A stretch of 27,067 nucleotides of DNA from a virus (IMGVR_UViG_3300012363_000018:1-27067), one strand, 5' to 3'; numbered from the stretch's first letter, positions 18,456 through 25,215 are shown. The notes: generated from the sequence alone by a model not told the origin. Numbers and translations: made by a program.

Positions 18456-18795
18456 CGGCAGCGCCCGCCTAGAGCGCTTCATCGAGATGCTCGTAGCCGC
18501 CCGCGCCTCCCCCACCCGCGCCGCATTCGTCCAGCTCCATCGTGACCTCAACGCCCTGGAGTTCGTCCTCCTCGTCGATCGTAGTGGCTGGGCGCCCTCG
18601 GTCCCTGATCCTGAACTCAAGCGCGGCCTCTTGCGGTGCGCAGCGCCACAATGTCGCGCCACCTGGCGCACCCCCGACGCCTGCCTCCTCCGCGTCGCTG
18701 ACGCATGGTATTGCCGCCAGCACCACCCTGTCCGCGAGTACGGCCTCCACGACCCAGGTTGGATGCCCCCTTACAAGGAGCCTCCCCCAACATGA
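18418..18795 (+). CDS. 125-aa protein with Cys-rich C-terminus
   Basis: The start at 18418 lies within the previous gene. The N-terminal part is helical and acidic (LERFIEMLVAARASPTRAAF, LHRDLNALEFVLLVD). The C-terminal part has several Cys and His residues (RCAAPQCRATW, PDACLL, WYCRQHHP), fitting a zinc-ribbon-like site. The frame is open far upstream, so the exact start is uncertain. Function is unknown. Confidence 0.55.
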   Translation: MTASSESSASGDDGSARLERFIEMLVAARASPTRAAFVQLHRDLNALEFVLLVDRSGWAPSVPDPELKRGLLRCAAPQCRATWRTPDACLLRVADAWYCRQHHPVREYGLHDPGWMPPYKEPPPT

Positions 18796-18980
18796 CCCGC
18801 ATCTGCGCCACTTGCAAAGAAGAGAAACCACTATGGCAGTTCCAGCGCACAGGCCCCCGCGCCCATTGGCGTGACACCCTCTGCCGCCCCTGTCGCCTCT
18901 TCCGATCGAAGCTACGCCGGATAGAGACAGACCAATACTTCGCCGAGCTAAACGCAACGCGTGGATGGACCCGTCCATGA
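18792..18980 (+). CDS. 62-aa zinc-ribbon protein
   Basis: The start is in an ATGA overlap. Two CxxC knuckles (CATC at 5-8, CRPC at 32-35) around WQFQRTGPRAHWRDTL form a compact zinc site. A basic helix follows (RLFRSKLRRIETDQYF). Such proteins accompany phage replication genes; DNA or RNA contact is probable. The stop overlaps the polymerase start. Confidence 0.65.
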   Translation: MTRICATCKEEKPLWQFQRTGPRAHWRDTLCRPCRLFRSKLRRIETDQYFAELNATRGWTRP

Positions 18981-20692
18981 CAGTTGATCACCCCATCCAG
19001 GATGGCAACCCCGCCTCCGCTTCCATCTGGCTAATTGGCGAAGCCCCCGGCGCTGACGAAGTCAGCTCTGGCCGCCCCTTCTCTGGCGCCAGCGGCTACG
19101 AACTCAACAAGATGCTCAATGAAGCCGGCATCGACCGTGGCGCTTGCTTCGCCACCAACGTGTGCCACGTCCGCCCCCCCTCCTACCAGAAGAACGGAAA
19201 GTGGGTCCACAATGACATCGACCAGTTCTTCGCGTCGGCGACTGTCGCACGACTAGAGGGTCTCTCGCTCCTCAATCGACGCTTTCCTCGCGAACCTATC
19301 ACCGCAGGAATTGAGCACCTTCGACGACTTCTGCAAGATCACCGCCCGCATCTTATCATCGCTCTCGGCAACACCCCACTCTGGGCGCTTACTGGTGAGC
19401 TCGGCATTACTAAGTGGCGCGGAAGTGTTATACAAGCGGAAGGTAGGCCAAGCAAAGTCCTCCCCACCTTCCATCCAGCCGATGTCCTCCGAGCCTGGAC
19501 CCACCGACCGATAGTCGTCCAAGACCTCCGCCGCGCAGCTCGTGAAGCAGAGTATCCTGAGATCCGACGCCCCCACTGGGAGTTCACCGTTGCCCCATCC
19601 CTATCCGATGTATTGGAGTGGTTTCAAACATACGCGAACGACAGCGACTCGCCTCTGGTCTGTGACACGGAAGGCTGGGGGCGTGTCGATTGTGTGGGGT
19701 TCGCATCTGACTCCACGCATGCGATCTGTATTCCGTTCACGCATCCTGCTGAACTTGCATCACCGCACTACTGGACGCCGGAGGATGAGTTCACCGTAAC
19801 GCAAGCCTGCCGTACGGTGCTCTCCTCCCGCCCTATCATCTTCCACAACGCCCTCTGGGACTGCCAAGTCATCGCCCGCCGCTGGGCGCTCCTCCCCCTC
19901 CTTCACTCCGACACCATGGTCATGCAACATGTCGCGTTCCCTGGACTCCTGGGCGGCAAGATTGATCCAGTCACGGGCCGAGTGGATAAGAAAGGTTCTT
20001 CTCTTAGCCTATCCTTCATTGCATCAATGTACTGTGACTATTATCGTTATTGGAAAGACGACGGACGGACCTTTGACCCAAGCATTCACGACGAGCGACA
20101 ATACTGGCGCTACAACTGCGAGGACTGCGTCCGCACCTTCGAGTGCTGGAACGCTCTCACCACCATCATCGACCGCTCGCACCTCCGAGAGCAACTCAAC
20201 TTCGAGATGCGGCTCTTTGCGCCCGTGCTCTCCATGATGTTCCGGGGCATGCGCTACGACAGCACTGCATGTGGGCAACAGCGACAGTGGTTCACCGGTG
20301 AGATTAACCGAACTCAAGAGTGGCTTGACAGTGCAGTCGGGTTCCACCTCAACCCCGACTCCACCCCCCAGATGCGCGCCCTCTTCTACGACGACCTTCG
20401 CGTCCCCCAGCTCCGCAACCGCAAGACTGGCGCCCTCACTCTCGACGACCCTGCCCTCACCACTATCGCCATTCGCAACCCCCTCCTGCGACCTCTCGTC
20501 GCACAGATCCAGAACTATCGCACCCTAGACACCCTGCGAGCCGCCCTCGACGCCGCACCATCCCCCGACGGCCGGATGCGCAACGCCCTCAACATCGCCG
20601 GAGTTGAGACCTTCCGGTTCTCCTCCAATGAGACTGCCTTCGGAGAGGGCGGGAATTTACAGAATATTAAGCGAACTGACGGAGACAGTTAA
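18977..20692 (+). CDS. UDG-like domain fused to the N-terminal half of a family A DNA polymerase
   Basis: The protein has 571 residues from the ATG in an ATGA overlap (18965 is an alternative). Residues 1-195: uracil-DNA-glycosylase-like domain with GEAPG (21-25), GRPFSGASG and HPADVL (166-171); the N-terminal Fe-S cysteine pair of family 4 enzymes is not visible. Residues 210-395: 3'-5' exonuclease with D230/E232 (DTE), HNALWD (290-295) and YNCED (379-383). Residues 405-566: polymerase thumb up to FRFSSNETAF...GNLQNIKR. It then stops at TDGDS, just before motif A. Palm motifs A, B and C are in the separate gene at 22767. SPO1-type polymerases are known to carry a UDG-like N-terminus. Confidence 0.8.
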   Translation: MTVDHPIQDGNPASASIWLIGEAPGADEVSSGRPFSGASGYELNKMLNEAGIDRGACFATNVCHVRPPSYQKNGKWVHNDIDQFFASATVARLEGLSLLNRRFPREPITAGIEHLRRLLQDHRPHLIIALGNTPLWALTGELGITKWRGSVIQAEGRPSKVLPTFHPADVLRAWTHRPIVVQDLRRAAREAEYPEIRRPHWEFTVAPSLSDVLEWFQTYANDSDSPLVCDTEGWGRVDCVGFASDSTHAICIPFTHPAELASPHYWTPEDEFTVTQACRTVLSSRPIIFHNALWDCQVIARRWALLPLLHSDTMVMQHVAFPGLLGGKIDPVTGRVDKKGSSLSLSFIASMYCDYYRYWKDDGRTFDPSIHDERQYWRYNCEDCVRTFECWNALTTIIDRSHLREQLNFEMRLFAPVLSMMFRGMRYDSTACGQQRQWFTGEINRTQEWLDSAVGFHLNPDSTPQMRALFYDDLRVPQLRNRKTGALTLDDPALTTIAIRNPLLRPLVAQIQNYRTLDTLRAALDAAPSPDGRMRNALNIAGVETFRFSSNETAFGEGGNLQNIKRTDGDS

Positions 20693-20727
20693 TGCCTACA
20701 CCTAAACTTACAAGCCATGACCGATAA
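20692..20727 (+). CDS. Possible 11-aa leader peptide after the polymerase stop
   Basis: TAATG joins the polymerase stop to an ATG with GGAG seven bases upstream. The frame (MPTPKLTSHDR) ends 11 bases inside the next gene, which itself lacks a ribosome site. It may carry ribosomes to the next start, or be chance. Confidence 0.3.
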   Translation: MPTPKLTSHDR

Positions 20728-21427
20728 AGAGCGCCTCGACCGCCTAGACGAAGCGGCGCGTGCCATCGACCACATCCGAGCACTCGGCCCTCCCATCGAG
20801 AGCCCGTATGAGGGGCGCGAGGCTGACTGGAGAATGTGCTGCGATCGGTGCCGTGCGCAGGTGCTCGCACTGCAGCTGCGAGCACGAGCCTCGGCCAGTG
20901 CCGGGTGGATTGAATGGCATGGCGGCGAATGCCCCGTCCCCGTTGGTGAGTCCTTTGAATATCGTCTTCGTAATGGCACAGGGAACGGGCCGCTAAGAAC
21001 GCCCACCGCCTGGAATTGGGAGCATCATGGTGACCAATATGACATTGTTGCTTATCGGTTGACCGAGGCAGCGCAAGCCCCGCCCGGCGCGTCGGTGATG
21101 GAGCGGGCACAGGCGGCATGCGCGCCCCTACTTTATCAGCGCGCATGTACCGGCGACAATGTTGAAGATCCTGGCCTCATCTTATGGCGACGGGACTACG
21201 ACAGACTCTTGGAGAACAATGCCCGCGCCATCGAGCAGGCCGAGGCCGAGGCCCGCGCGAAGGCGATCGAAGACGCGGCGCAGATAGCGTTCGACACTGC
21301 GAACGAAGATCTACCAGAGCAGCATTGGGACTTAGCTCGTGAGCGCCGCCAACTATGGGCTTCGGCCTGCGGACGCATCATGACAAAGGTCCGCGCCCTC
21401 GCCAAGCCGCAGGAGAAGTCGCCATGA
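20717..21427 (+). CDS. 236-aa phage protein, first gene of the cassette between polymerase halves
   Basis: The start at 20717 has no ribosome site of its own. Residues 62-115 hold GWIEWHGGECPVPVGESFEY...YDIVAYRL (only key parts given), a pattern known to me from uncharacterised phage proteins with a WIEW.GGECP core. The N-terminal part has C41, C42 and C45 (MCCDRC), and the C-terminal third is a long charged helix (NARAIEQAEAEARAKAIEDA). It is not an endonuclease I recognise, which argues against a simple homing-endonuclease intron ORF. Confidence 0.65.
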   Translation: MTDKERLDRLDEAARAIDHIRALGPPIESPYEGREADWRMCCDRCRAQVLALQLRARASASAGWIEWHGGECPVPVGESFEYRLRNGTGNGPLRTPTAWNWEHHGDQYDIVAYRLTEAAQAPPGASVMERAQAACAPLLYQRACTGDNVEDPGLILWRRDYDRLLENNARAIEQAEAEARAKAIEDAAQIAFDTANEDLPEQHWDLARERRQLWASACGRIMTKVRALAKPQEKSP

Positions 21428-21561
21428 CCATTCCCCAGTGGGGCTGGTGGAGTGATGGCTTCGGGTGGCAGCCCGAGGACACGGCGCTAGTCACGATGAC
21501 AGCTGGCCTCATCGCTCTATGCGCCTGCCTCACTATCTTCTCTCGCATCATGTACTACTAG
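21424..21561 (+). CDS. 45-aa membrane peptide
   Basis: The start is in an ATGA overlap. A Trp-rich N-terminus (MTIPQWGWWSDGFGWQPED) precedes one hydrophobic segment (ALVTMTAGLIALCACLTIFS) and a short RIMYY end. Its function in the cassette is unknown. Confidence 0.6.
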   Translation: MTIPQWGWWSDGFGWQPEDTALVTMTAGLIALCACLTIFSRIMYY

Positions 21562-21571
21562 GAGACCTCCC

Positions 21572-21871
21572 GTGGCCCTCGATCCAAATTCATACCTCCG
21601 TGTCCTCCTCGACACCTTCACCCCTGTCCGAGACACTCAGGCCCACCTCGTCGGCTGCATCCCGAAGGTGCCGGACAACTCCGACATCATCACGGACTCC
21701 CAGGGCCGGATCTATGAACTCCGCTGGTCGATGCAGGTCTGTGTGTGCATTGACCTAGAGCAGCAATCCCCCACCTCCCTCGACGGCTTCATCCCACTCG
21801 ACGACACTGACACTGATCTCGCGGTGCCTGTCGCCCGAGGCGATGACCCTGACCTTGCAGAAGGGGTGTGA
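21572..21871 (+). CDS. 99-aa acidic protein, unknown function
   Basis: It starts at a GTG with GGAGA upstream. Strand-like segments (YLRVLLDTFTPV, RIYELRWSMQVCVCIDL) end in a very acidic tail (LDDTDTDLAVPVARGDDPDL). An acidic C-terminus of this kind can mimic SSB tails or DNA, but no such role is shown. The stop overlaps the ribosome site of the exonuclease gene. Confidence 0.55.
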   Translation: MALDPNSYLRVLLDTFTPVRDTQAHLVGCIPKVPDNSDIITDSQGRIYELRWSMQVCVCIDLEQQSPTSLDGFIPLDDTDTDLAVPVARGDDPDLAEGV

Positions 21872-21872
21872 A

Positions 21873-22508
21873 ATGCTATTATTCCTCGATACGGAGACAA
21901 CCGGCCTCCCCGACTTCAACTTGCCCATCACCCACCCCAGCCAACCCCACATCGTCCAGATTGCGGCATGGCTCGGTGAGCCTCCTGTCGGCCGCGACTA
22001 TGCCCCAATGCTAGAGTGCCGCCACGTCGCCTCTCTCAACGCAGTGATCCGTCCCAGCGGATGGGAAGTTGGCGCCCACGCTGAGCGCATCCATGGCATC
22101 TCGACCCGCTACGCGCTCGCCTTCGGCGAGGATCTCGCCCACACCCTACGACGGTTCTTCGAGATGGTGAAGCTGGCCGATGACAAGGAGAATGGCTGCT
22201 CTGGCACCCTGATCGCCCACAACCTCCCCTTCGACCACCGGATGCTGACCGCTGACGCTGCGCGCGCCGGGCTCGATGCCACCCCCCTCGGTCTCCTCAA
22301 GCCGTTCTGCACCATGCGGGCGCTGACTCCCCGCATGCGACTGCCAGGCAAGTGGCCCGGCAAATACAAGTGGCCCAACCTCACCGAAGCTCACCGCTTC
22401 TGCTTCCCCGACACCGCCGACTTCGACAACAAGCACACCGCGATGGGAGATCTCCTCGCTTGCAAGGATATCTATCTACACGGCCTTACGGAGGGCTGGT
22501 GGACATGA
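21873..22508 (+). CDS. DnaQ-like DEDDh 3'-5' exonuclease
   Basis: The protein has 211 residues and starts at an ATG with AAGGGG seven bases upstream. ExoI is LDTETTGLP (D6, E8), followed by IHGIST. ExoII is LIAHNLPFDHRML, with the acid in PFD. ExoIII is KHTAMGDLLACKDIY, with His and Asp in HxxxxD. This is the DEDDh order of proofreading-type exonucleases (DnaQ/RNase T group). It lies between the two polymerase halves, although the N-terminal half already has its own exonuclease domain; it may serve repair or RNA-primer removal. Confidence 0.8.
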   Translation: MLLFLDTETTGLPDFNLPITHPSQPHIVQIAAWLGEPPVGRDYAPMLECRHVASLNAVIRPSGWEVGAHAERIHGISTRYALAFGEDLAHTLRRFFEMVKLADDKENGCSGTLIAHNLPFDHRMLTADAARAGLDATPLGLLKPFCTMRALTPRMRLPGKWPGKYKWPNLTEAHRFCFPDTADFDNKHTAMGDLLACKDIYLHGLTEGWWT

Positions 22509-22766
22509 CCTCCCATCGGCGAGCGGAGTGGTGCGGGAGGGGGGTGACACCCAAGCGCGCGCCTATGCTTGCCAGCGACGCCGCCGCAGGCGGCGGAGCG
22601 AGGCCCGAAGGGCCGGCAAGCGCGCGCAGGGTGTCAAGCGAAGTGGAGGGCCGAGGCTCCGTGGCGAGCGAAGGCGAGCGAAGCGAGCCTGAGCGGTCCC
22701 CGAAGGGGACGCCATGGACGGCCCGCAGCGGAGCGACCCCCGACACGGTCCGCGAGCGAGGTAATC
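22509..22766 (+). ncRNA. Highly foldable GC-rich element before the second polymerase half
   Basis: No convincing gene lies here. Two long-range stems, GACACCC/GGGTGTC (22546-22552 with 22629-22635) plus GCTTGCC/GGCAAGC (22567-22573 with 22615-22621), enclose two hairpins (CGCCGCC-GCA-GGCGGCG at 22579-22595 and GGCCC-GAA-GGGCC at 22602-22614). A second unit, GGGCCG/CGGCCC (22648-22653 with 22719-22724), encloses AGGCTC/GAGCCT and GTCCCC-GAA-GGGGAC (22696-22710). Both units are three-way-junction-like. Candidates are a ribozyme or intron part, a translation-control RNA, or a mobile repeat. Confidence 0.5.
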
Positions 22767-23642
22767 ATGTCTGATGACCCCTACGCCCTCTCCCTCCCCA
22801 ACCTACGGGCGCTCTACCTGCCGGATCCTGGCCATGTCTTCGTCGAGGCTGATCTTGCCCGCGCCGACGCCCAAGTCATCGCGTGGGAGGCGGGCGCAAC
22901 TAAGCTGAAAGGGGAACTGGCTAATGACCTCGACCTCCACACCTCCAACGCCATCCGCCTGTACGCTTCGGTGCGAGAGGGGGACCGTTTCCGTCAAGTG
23001 CGTGATCTTGCCCCCCGCGCGATGCACTCCAACGGCATGTCCTATCGCGACAATGCTAAGCGCTGGGTCCACGCCACCAACTTCGGCGGACGTGCTCGTA
23101 CGGTGGCATCCACGATCGTCCTCCCCGAGAAGCACGTAGAGACCTGTCAACGCTGGTGGTTGCGTGAGGAGCACCCCGAGATCGGAGCATTCCATGACAA
23201 GCTTGAGTTCGATCTCCGCTCCCGCAAGAACCCAATCATCCACAACAAGTTCGGCTTCCGCCGCCTCTATGTCGGCGGCGATCGCACCAGCAACCTCCTC
23301 GGCCAGGCCCTCGCCTGGATCGCGCAGAGCACCGTCGCTGTGGTTATCAACCACGCTATGCTTGCTGTCGATTGCGCTGCCGATCTCCTCAGCCAGCGCC
23401 GCTGTGGCACTTGCATGGCTTGTGTAGGTTGGGACCTGGAACTACTAATGCAACACCATGACAGCCTCTTGCTCCAGGTGCCCGAGGCGGGCCTATCGCA
23501 GCCTCTCATCGACGGCCTCCGTGCTGCCATGTCCGTTGTGGTTCCTTACGACGATCCTTTAACGATAGGCTGTGAAATCAAGTGGAGCGACCGCAGCTGG
23601 GGGCACATGGCACCTTGGAAAGCACAGGAGAGAGCAGCATGA
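22767..23642 (+). CDS. C-terminal palm/fingers half of a family A DNA polymerase
   Basis: The protein has 291 residues. Motif A is D29 in VEADLARADAQ, a DxxxAD variant of DYSQIE. Motif B is T7-like RDNAK (R94, K98) followed by H102 and NFGG. Motif C is HDS (H231, D232). The thumb and exonuclease are missing and are encoded at 18977-20692. The ATG at 22767 has GAGGT five bases upstream, so it can be translated separately; the open frame further upstream has repeat-like, non-protein composition. Residues MSDDPYALSLPNLRALYLPD would directly continue the NLQNIKR end of the first half. Confidence 0.8.
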   Translation: MSDDPYALSLPNLRALYLPDPGHVFVEADLARADAQVIAWEAGATKLKGELANDLDLHTSNAIRLYASVREGDRFRQVRDLAPRAMHSNGMSYRDNAKRWVHATNFGGRARTVASTIVLPEKHVETCQRWWLREEHPEIGAFHDKLEFDLRSRKNPIIHNKFGFRRLYVGGDRTSNLLGQALAWIAQSTVAVVINHAMLAVDCAADLLSQRRCGTCMACVGWDLELLMQHHDSLLLQVPEAGLSQPLIDGLRAAMSVVVPYDDPLTIGCEIKWSDRSWGHMAPWKAQERAA

Positions 23643-23929
23643 GGTTCGATTTCTCTGGTCGACCCGACTTCGACACTCAACTGGAAGACTCCCTAATCGG
23701 CAATATATACAGATGTAAGGGAGGAAACAAGACAAATTACTGGATGATTGTTGGAGTTAGAGCTAGCACAGTCATTTGCCTCGGATTGGATGATGAAGGC
23801 AACATAACATCTTCCTCAAACTATGGCCTGCATGTGTTTCACAACAGCCCCTGGGCCAGGGAACCTTTGGGCAAAGCCATAGACATGCCCGAGATGAGGT
23901 TCAATGTAGCGTGGAGGGAATTGAAATAG
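23639..23929 (+). CDS. 96-aa phage protein, unknown function
   Basis: The start is in an ATGA overlap with GGAGAG upstream. The segment IGNIYRCKGGNKTNYWMIVG, then VICLGLDDEGNITSSSNYGL forms a beta-rich unit like small phage proteins that I know only as hypothetical. It is AT-richer than its neighbours. The stop overlaps the GTG of the primase/helicase gene. Confidence 0.6.
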   Translation: MRFDFSGRPDFDTQLEDSLIGNIYRCKGGNKTNYWMIVGVRASTVICLGLDDEGNITSSSNYGLHVFHNSPWAREPLGKAIDMPEMRFNVAWRELK

Positions 23930-25215
23930 TGTCCCGCCACTTCCCTGATTGGCTCGCCGCCTTCACAGAGACTCTCACCCCCAAGGGGGAGGCGCCAGAG
24001 CGGTTCTATTTCTGGTCCGGCGTCTCCACAATCGCGGGTGTTCTGCGCCGCCGCGTATTCATCGACGAGGGCCATTTCAAGCACCACCCAAACTTCTATA
24101 TCGTCCTCGTTGGTCCCCCCGGCCTCGTGAAGAAATCCACCACTATCAACATCGGGGCCAACCTCCTCAACACCATTCCTAACGTCATCCTCGGCGCCGA
24201 CTGCGCTACTTGGCAAGCCTTCGTGGAGGAAGTCGCCGCTGCGCAGGATCTATTTGCTTCCGGCGACGTAGCTGTCACTAACCTCGTTGACCAGACCCAC
24301 TCCGTCACCTGCGCCCTGACCCTCGCCATCTCCGAACTCGGCACATTCTTCGACCCCAATGACCACATGATGGTCAACGTGATGACGGAACTCTATGACG
24401 GCAAAGACAACCCATTCCGCAAGCGCACCAAGACCATGGGGGAGGATGAGATCCGATCCCCCTTCGTCAATATCATCGCCGGCACGACGCCTGATTGGAT
24501 CCATGCCAACTTTCGAGGCCGCTTCGGTGGCTGGGGACTCAGCTCCCGCATCATCTTCCTCCACTGCGACGAGAAGGAGCGCGACGTCCCATTTCCCCAC
24601 GAGCTGTGGCAGGGCACCTTCGACGCCACGATGGAACGGTTCCGCGACGACCTGATCGCAATCAGCAAGCTCCAAGGGACTTGCACCTATGCCCCAGCAG
24701 CCAAGGATTTCTACCGAGAACTGTACGGTAATCACGGTAGACGCCAAACCCTACTTAACCGTAATGCGCATCACGACCCATGGCTGTCATACTACTTCGC
24801 ACGGAAGCTCGACCACGTTCTAAAGCTCGCAATTGTGCTATCTGCATCCCGCAACCACCAGCTAGTCATCACACTCGAAGACATGCGGGACGCAGCAGCC
24901 CGCTGCGATCAAATCGAGGTAGAACTCAGCAAGGTCTTCGCCGACAAGCAGTCAGGATCTCGCGAGGTCCGCCTCAACAAAGATGTCTGGAACGGCATCG
25001 TCAACGTGATCCGCCACGACGGGGCGATGGAACAGCGCCAGATGTGGAGCTTCACCTCCCAATTCATGACCTTCGGCCGGGCTAAGGAACTCATTGACCA
25101 ACTCATCGCAGGGCGCTGGTTGATCTGTGAGTCCTCGCTGGAGGGCGTGTTCTATACTTTCGGAGAGAACGCCCCGCTGCCAGAGGAATCTTTACATCTC
25201 AACGCCCCACTATAG
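23929..25215 (+). CDS. DUF3987-like phage primase/helicase ATPase
   Basis: The protein has 428 residues from a GTG overlapping the previous stop, with GGAGGG upstream. Walker A is GPPGLVKKST (62-71), typical of DUF3987 proteins (GxxGxxKS). LAISELGTFF (132-141) is the Walker-B-like site with E136. NIIAGTTPDWI and SSRIIFLHCDE would carry the sensor and arginine finger. The C-terminal half has winged-helix-like helices. It probably acts as the replicative helicase or primase-helicase beside the polymerase. No separate DnaB-type helicase is seen in the window. Confidence 0.7.
   Translation: MSRHFPDWLAAFTETLTPKGEAPERFYFWSGVSTIAGVLRRRVFIDEGHFKHHPNFYIVLVGPPGLVKKSTTINIGANLLNTIPNVILGADCATWQAFVEEVAAAQDLFASGDVAVTNLVDQTHSVTCALTLAISELGTFFDPNDHMMVNVMTELYDGKDNPFRKRTKTMGEDEIRSPFVNIIAGTTPDWIHANFRGRFGGWGLSSRIIFLHCDEKERDVPFPHELWQGTFDATMERFRDDLIAISKLQGTCTYAPAAKDFYRELYGNHGRRQTLLNRNAHHDPWLSYYFARKLDHVLKLAIVLSASRNHQLVITLEDMRDAAARCDQIEVELSKVFADKQSGSREVRLNKDVWNGIVNVIRHDGAMEQRQMWSFTSQFMTFGRAKELIDQLIAGRWLICESSLEGVFYTFGENAPLPEESLHLNAPL

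Follow-up and report, generated by a model that had tools for sequence, protein, structure and literature searches.

The viral contig IMGVR_UViG_3300012363_000018:1-27067, here called the window (the whole 27,067-nucleotide (nt) stretch of DNA that was analysed), encodes a family A DNA polymerase in two open reading frames (ORFs), half 1 and half 2, which are separated by 2074 nt and take the place of the single polypeptide usual for family A. We consider it highly probable (approximately 0.92) that this enzyme consists of two subunits, each translated on its own, which together form the active site, and that the split arose by repeated gene fission, or by fission plus re-fusion, at one joint. 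The split itself is real and recurrent, being present in 43 of the 83 family members that were classed. An initial annotation of the window had proposed a family A polymerase in two genes approximately 2.1 kb apart, and ORF calls, Pfam and PHROG profiles, and comparison with relatives confirm this proposal, including its placement of the first stop at 20692 and of the second half from 22767.

In the proposed mechanism, subunit 1 would bring a uracil-DNA glycosylase (UDG)-like domain, the proofreading exonuclease, the thumb, and a first palm segment carrying the R668/NLQN motif, while subunit 2 would bring motifs A, B, and C on the remaining palm and fingers. The complex would be a non-covalent one, in which both chains complete a single Pol I fold and share its active site, neither chain being expected to polymerise alone. 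Such association is expected because the break lies in a linker of variable length that is also present in uninterrupted members.

Two complementary halves of one Pol I fold

Half 1 ends in GEGGNLQNIKRTDGDS (also written GGNLQNIKRTDGDS) directly before its stop codon, and half 2 opens at ATG 22767 with MSDDPYALSLPNLRALYLPD. Mapping of both halves onto family A profiles revealed that half 1 covers positions 4-132 and half 2 positions 140-371 of Pfam DNA_pol_A (381 positions), and that the corresponding ranges in PHROG 17 (DNA polymerase, 1445 positions) are 482-989 and 996-1239. In profile searches of the PDB, half 1 stops at residue 331 of the Bst fragment and half 2 begins at 338, the equivalent boundaries in Klenow being 361 and 366. 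AlphaFold models were built of each chain singly. In the half 1 model (predicted local distance difference test score (pLDDT) 90), residues 199-569 superpose on residues 297-631 of Bst Pol I and residues 1-195 match solved family 4 UDG/UdgX structures with Z scores of 20-21, and the half 2 model (pLDDT 91) matches Bst Pol I from approximately 630 to 876 with a Z score of 22. Both models therefore recover the Pol I fold of Bst and Klenow (Z 20-22) and meet at approximately residue 631. As the profile coverage is non-overlapping and nothing conserved is lost or doubled, the halves are complementary. In the Pfam, PHROG, and Pol I structure comparisons, every conserved residue around the joint occurs once and once only, which bears out the seamless junction claimed in the initial annotation, and the break is predicted from these alignments to interrupt a variable linker only.

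The hallmarks of family A, namely the motif A Asp, the motif B K/Y(F), the motif C His-Asp, and TxR...NLQN, are all present, spread over both ORFs. Half 1 carries the TxRxSS...NLQN motif, which we take, from established knowledge of Pol I and the alignment, to represent Klenow R668, N675, Q677, and N678; the T and R of TFR and the Q of NLQN are invariant or near-invariant in split and fused members alike. Because this motif sits in half 1 and motifs A, B, and C sit in half 2, the active site is composite, and the earlier claim that all catalytic motifs lie in half 2 was wrong. The assignment of the exonuclease and thumb to half 1 stood, though the UDG-like domain (Pfam E 3e-24) had gone unmentioned. 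The proofreading motifs DxE, Nx3D, and Yx3D are found in half 1 as D230/E232, N291/D295, and Y379/D383, all invariant in the family alignment.

The UDG domain is family 4-like, with the fold and the GExPG motif (as GEAPG) recognised by sequence, Pfam, and model. In family 4 UDGs, four Cys ligands hold an iron-sulphur cluster. No CxxC was found near the N-terminus of half 1, and no Cys is among the invariant or nearly invariant positions of its UDG region.

The split is shared by close relatives and both halves are under selection

Scanning IMG/VR with half 2 yielded nine loci with 53-72% identity (loci are designated by L numbers). The split is present in all eight loci that hold both halves (L007-L011 and L013-L015), which share the half 1 end NLQNIKRPDGD followed by the stop. 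In the ninth, L012, a contig of 42,970 bases, half 2 lies at the contig start beside the same flanking genes and the half 1 match lies at the contig end, as expected for a permuted circular genome. Sequencing error, which the initial annotation had named as a potential refutation, was rejected as the cause of the split, as was chance, because these eight relatives on other contigs share both the split and the stop.

Both halves are under purifying selection, with ratios of nonsynonymous to synonymous substitution rates (dN/dS) of approximately 0.14-0.22 for half 1 and 0.06-0.21 for half 2 among the relatives of the window with at least 68% identity, and of 0.21-0.31 in the distant, saturated comparisons with L012. 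Searches of the nine records for a family B polymerase (PF00136) found none, and PF00476 matched only the two halves or a single fused gene, leaving no second family A locus in these records; the 42-44 kb relatives show no second polymerase. These results bear on whether the halves are a decaying or non-functional remnant. Gene fission often precedes loss, and one otherwise fused polymerase (L102:2186-4645) has an in-frame stop in its exonuclease part that may reflect a pseudogene, an error, or recoding, yet the purifying selection on both halves, the invariance of their catalytic residues, the retention of the split through deep divergence, and the lack of a replacement polymerase make decay very improbable.

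Split and fused members of a wider family

A scan with four aligned half-2 sequences returned 358 relatives, of which the best 80 by similarity were fetched. Classing these 80 loci together with the earlier loci and the window gave 83 members, 43 split and 40 fused at the joint, a ratio that is not a prevalence as the 80 loci are those most similar to a seed of two split and two fused members. The set includes some nearly identical members and a distant one, Kuura (L004). Among relatives found in genome contigs, two of four are also split, in metagenome-assembled genomes assigned to Ignavibacteria and Dokdonella. Split half 1 sequences always stop approximately 4 to 13 residues past NLQN, the start of half 2 lies a short way ahead of PN[IV]R, usually within approximately 20 residues, and fused members carry a linker at the joint with a median of 14 and a maximum of 53 residues by automatic measurement.

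In all 31 split members counted, the DxE, Nx3D, and Yx3D motifs, TxR, the Q of NLQN, the motif A Asp, the motif B Lys, a Q849-type Gln, and the motif C His-Asp are present, and the same catalytic residues occur in 36 fused members, gaps or single exceptions aside. As the catalytic residues are equally conserved in split and fused members, function appears to be kept. Pairwise distances of the exonuclease-thumb and palm-fingers parts correlate with r values of 0.75 in split and 0.60 in fused members. A different arrangement was seen in Caulobacter phage Kuura (L004:7971-11375), whose UDG-PolA is fused at the joint but apparently interrupted by two small ORFs within the exonuclease region.

The distance from the half 1 stop to the half 2 start ranges from -4 nt (L050, L068, and L095, as an ATGA overlap) to approximately 2.9 kb (L043), other short distances being -1 nt (L079 and L099), 0 (L065), 2 (L059), and 43 nt (L037). 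Reading of the sequences revealed that the gap contents are unrelated across lineages, and include ORFs resembling dUTPase (L082:5132-5584, L086:6531-6986, and L091:1732-2091), ribonucleotide reductase (L043 and L096), methyltransferase (L038 and L085), MazG (L062), and HNH endonuclease (L007, L009, L011, L013, L014, and L060). The same reading identified a 499-residue cytochrome-peroxidase-like protein with haem-binding motifs between the halves of one locus (L039:5477-6976), an odd cargo for a phage. The occurrence of dUTPase-like ORFs inside the gap of a UDG-carrying polymerase suggests a link to uracil avoidance.

Probable expression as two chains rather than a spliced or joined product

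The range of gap lengths and contents bears directly on how the two halves are expressed. The initial annotation had offered a group I intron as an alternative to two chains. In the general form of this idea, the stretch 20690-22769 would be an intron of group I or II, and its self-splicing from the RNA would yield one polymerase. Group I introns are well known in phage polymerase genes, the end bases of the gap fit an intron by arithmetic, and the authors describing a split polymerase in OM43 phages proposed an intron without evidence (PMC10580990). Against this, Rfam returned no intron family at gathering level across the window and, at a relaxed threshold (E up to 5) over 20600-22850, only a meaningless match of E = 5. 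The gap is filled by ordinary genes, different ones in different lineages; many members have only -4 to 43 nt between the halves, less than any intron would need; and the half 2 start of L013 and L014 coincides with the exonuclease stop, so that a 3' intron core would have nowhere to lie. An intron is ruled out as a general explanation by this range of gaps, the unrelated gap genes, and the half 2 starts on an upstream stop codon, and we regard it as extremely unlikely in the window too.

Joining at the level of translation or protein, by ribosome hopping, frameshifting, or a split intein, would also yield a single product. In L050, with its overlap of 4 nt, and in L065, where one in-frame stop lies between the halves, rare read-through would join the ORFs. 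Up to 2.9 kb of other genes lie between the halves in other members, however, neither the end of half 1 nor the start of half 2 is long enough to accommodate an intein segment, and half 2 has its own start and a Shine-Dalgarno (SD)-like site in most members. This explanation is also very improbable.

Independent translation of two chains is supported by the separate starts, the SD-like sites, the overlaps, and the wide separations. Overlaps of half 2 with an upstream stop are a usual sign of translational coupling. Where half 2 overlaps half 1, the half 1 tail PKGDE (AAG GGA GAT GAG) itself provides an SD-like AAGG. Some points weigh on the other side: the assembly of the complex is something we infer for every member of the family; the observation that an SD-like match of at least 4 nt precedes 36 of 43 half 2 starts, versus approximately 20% of random ATGs, comes from a biased comparison, the best-looking start having been picked; and the window covers just 27 kb of the genome, the rest of which may hold a second polymerase. 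Taken together, the start and ribosome site of half 2, the overlaps, the 43 split loci with their unrelated gap contents, the conserved catalytic residues, and the purifying selection strongly uphold the preference of the initial annotation for two separately translated chains.

Probable repeated fission at one joint

Trees were obtained by quick IQ-TREE searches. A tree of 79 members required at least eight changes between the split and fused states, five of them forced by well-supported branches, and a reduced set of 69 members required 11 changes, again with five forced. A single origin was rejected, as on this reduced set a tree with all split members in one clade had a p-AU of 5.9e-6 and a log-likelihood difference of 568. 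Irreversible fission needs at least 11 events, while irreversible fusion from a split ancestor needs 19. Repeated fission accounts for these changes most simply, given that the Pol I of cells is continuous at this point, although re-fusion may have occurred alongside it. The split would thus have originated by recurrent gene fission, or by fission and re-fusion, at one joint, with unrelated genes later accumulating in the gap.

On balance we favour a broader proposal, in which the joint between NLQN and motif A has been the site of repeated, independent cuts across a whole family of phage replicative polymerases (no fewer than 11 fissions on the reduced tree, assuming no reversal), Pol I can build its active site from two chains at no cost, and phages use the joint as a hotspot for inserting cargo genes into their polymerase operon, perhaps driven by mobile elements such as HNH genes and the hairpin element described below. 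It is possible, if somewhat doubtful, that the split was made by insertion of a homing (HNH) endonuclease gene at the joint, rather than by a simple frameshift or stop mutation after which genes were inserted. HNH-like ORFs occupy the gaps of L007, L009, L013, and L014 (cluster 3) and of L011 and L060, the window has another immediately before half 1, and there are T4-like precedents (PMC2988022), the nrdA gene of phage Aeh1 being the model. An HNH gene is absent from most gaps, however, and the bare 4-nt overlaps of L050, L068, and L095 represent fission without lasting insertion.

Organization of the locus and a structured element in the gap

The features of the polymerase locus are listed in Table 1. 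Four ORFs and a structured element occupy the gap in the window. In the close relatives, the 99-residue ORF and the DnaQ-like exonuclease gene are conserved between the halves and the remaining ORFs vary. An HNH-endonuclease-like ORF (PHROG 2255; 18705-18980) lies immediately upstream of half 1 and overlaps its start, and a primase-like gene (PHROG 14296; 23911-25215) lies downstream of half 2 and adjoins the polymerase in split and fused relatives.

Table 1. Features of the divided polymerase locus, in window coordinates.
Feature	Position	Strand	Basis or remark
Half 1 (putative subunit 1): UDG-like domain, 3'-5' exonuclease, thumb, first palm segment	18965..20692	+	ORF calls, Pfam, PHROG, model
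Half 1 start and stop	ATG 18965 or ATG 18977; TAA 20690-20692
UDG-superfamily domain of half 1	19001..19507	+	Pfam PF03167, residues 13-181, E 3e-24
TFRFSS...NLQN motif (Klenow R668...N678 equivalent), polymerase active-site piece within half 1	20609..20665	+
Gap ORF, 236 residues	20717..21427	+	PHROG 9174-like; varies among relatives
Gap ORF, 45 residues	21424..21561	+
Gap ORF, 99 residues	21572..21871	+	Kept in close relatives
Gap ORF, DnaQ-like exonuclease, likely start ATG 21873	21843..22508	+	PHROG 192, E 4e-22; kept in close relatives
GC-rich multi-hairpin element (putatively mobile), exonuclease gene to half 2	22515..22760	+	Fold, covariance model
Element core model match; partial repeat	22526-22641; 22662-22714
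SD-like GAGGT, 4 nt upstream of half 2 start	22758..22762	+
Half 2 (putative subunit 2), 291 residues: remaining palm and fingers, motifs A, B, C	22767..23642	+	Profiles, model
Motif A catalytic Asp, half 2 residue 29	22851..22853	+	Invariant in 31 split and 36 fused members
Motif B, RDNAKRWVHATNFGG	23046..23090	+	Alignment
Motif C His-Asp, half 2 residues 231-232	23457..23462	+	Invariant in split and fused members

The slot between the exonuclease gene and half 2 is filled by the structured element in the window and in L007, L008, L009, and L015, by an HNH-like ORF in L011, and by a different ORF in L010, and is empty in L012-L014. In L013 and L014, half 2 begins with a GTG placed on the exonuclease stop codon as a GTGA overlap (CCGTGACT). 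An alternative start of half 2 at TTG 22569, which would give 357 residues, was rejected because the stretch upstream is the hairpin element and relatives without the element start at the equivalent of 22767.

The element contains hairpins with C-GAA-G loops, and its RNA fold (z -5.1) and the DNA fold of its core (z -5.0) both depart from the random expectation. A covariance model made from its 5' part identified copies in the slot in the window, L007:7754-7942, L008:2749-2937, L009:7754-7942, and L015:7754-7942, a copy inside the exonuclease gene (L010:1965-2081), copies upstream of another gene (L017:5419-5535 on the minus strand and L021:6277-6393), and a truncated copy at a contig end (L105:1-103, minus strand). 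Eleven base pairs are changed on both sides versus 5.2 in shuffles, and in sliding controls pairing falls from 91% to below 50%. As judged from these alignments, the covarying structured element is mobile, occurring in three genomic places and missing from the same place in other relatives. No Rfam family was matched by the element at gathering level. The 18-base end pattern of the element also led to L016, where the covariance model found no element, and the match was taken as chance. In L010, the exonuclease frame (1832-2653) remains open through the element, approximately 16 residues being replaced by approximately 80, and the element may be translated or excised. This insertion recalls the palindromic elements inserted in Rickettsia genes.

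Significance and comparison with known systems

Split replicative polymerases were previously known only in scattered phages. The present family offers a natural series of split and unsplit polymerases, with halves from 4-nt overlaps to kilobases apart, in which it can be tested directly how a Pol I active site assembles from two chains, what makes this joint the recurrent choice, and whether regulation changes on splitting. In addition, biotechnology gains from it a natural template for two-part polymerases, and annotation pipelines a warning that phage family A polymerase genes often come in two pieces. In our literature searches a split UDG-PolA was not described, neither the present family nor its recurrence was described in any paper found, and a survey of polymerase swapping (PMC11348598) contained no passage on split genes.

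The T4-like Aeromonas phages encode a split family B polymerase, gp43A/gp43B (Petrov et al. 2010, reviewed in PMC2988022), and in the T4-like phage 25 these two proteins are reported to co-purify and to be polymerase-active (PMC2988022). There too a replicative phage polymerase gene is in two parts with other sequence between them, either an untranslated insert or a seg endonuclease gene. The present polymerase differs in belonging to family A, with a different fold and a UDG-like domain on subunit 1, and in that one joint has changed between open and closed many times within a large family, whose gaps hold unrelated genes. The NrdA of phage Aeh1, interrupted by insertion of mobE, is likewise an essential enzyme in two chains that restore activity (PMC2988022), but it is another enzyme with a single insertion, whereas most gaps in the present family contain no endonuclease gene.

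Closer in enzyme type are the OM43 phages MEP401 and MEP402, whose family A polymerase is split, as in most of that phage group, and for which the authors left the mechanism open and suggested an intron (PMC10580990), a misreading of a similar case against which the present series argues. Their break, too, separates the N-terminal from the C-terminal part of the Pfam domain, and a small ORF intervenes. No UDG domain is reported for MEP401 and MEP402, and their joint lies approximately 12-15 residues later, right before motif A, half 1 ending in NLQNFDGEIKTLFLSRYGE and half 2 beginning with MILNADAKALEW. As the joint position differs, we consider them a separate case.

Within the present family, a cultured phage is split at the same joint and annotated as having two separate proteins. 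This phage carries a single unrelated ORF, PVS_28, in its gap and possibly represents a separate fission event, as it lies on a deep branch; no gap gene is common to the Vibrio phage and the window. Finally, Microcystis phage Mel-JY34 and MW202489 encode a UDG-PolA with the same domain order, 31-39% identity over the halves, and the same downstream primase-like gene, but as one continuous gene with a linker at the joint.

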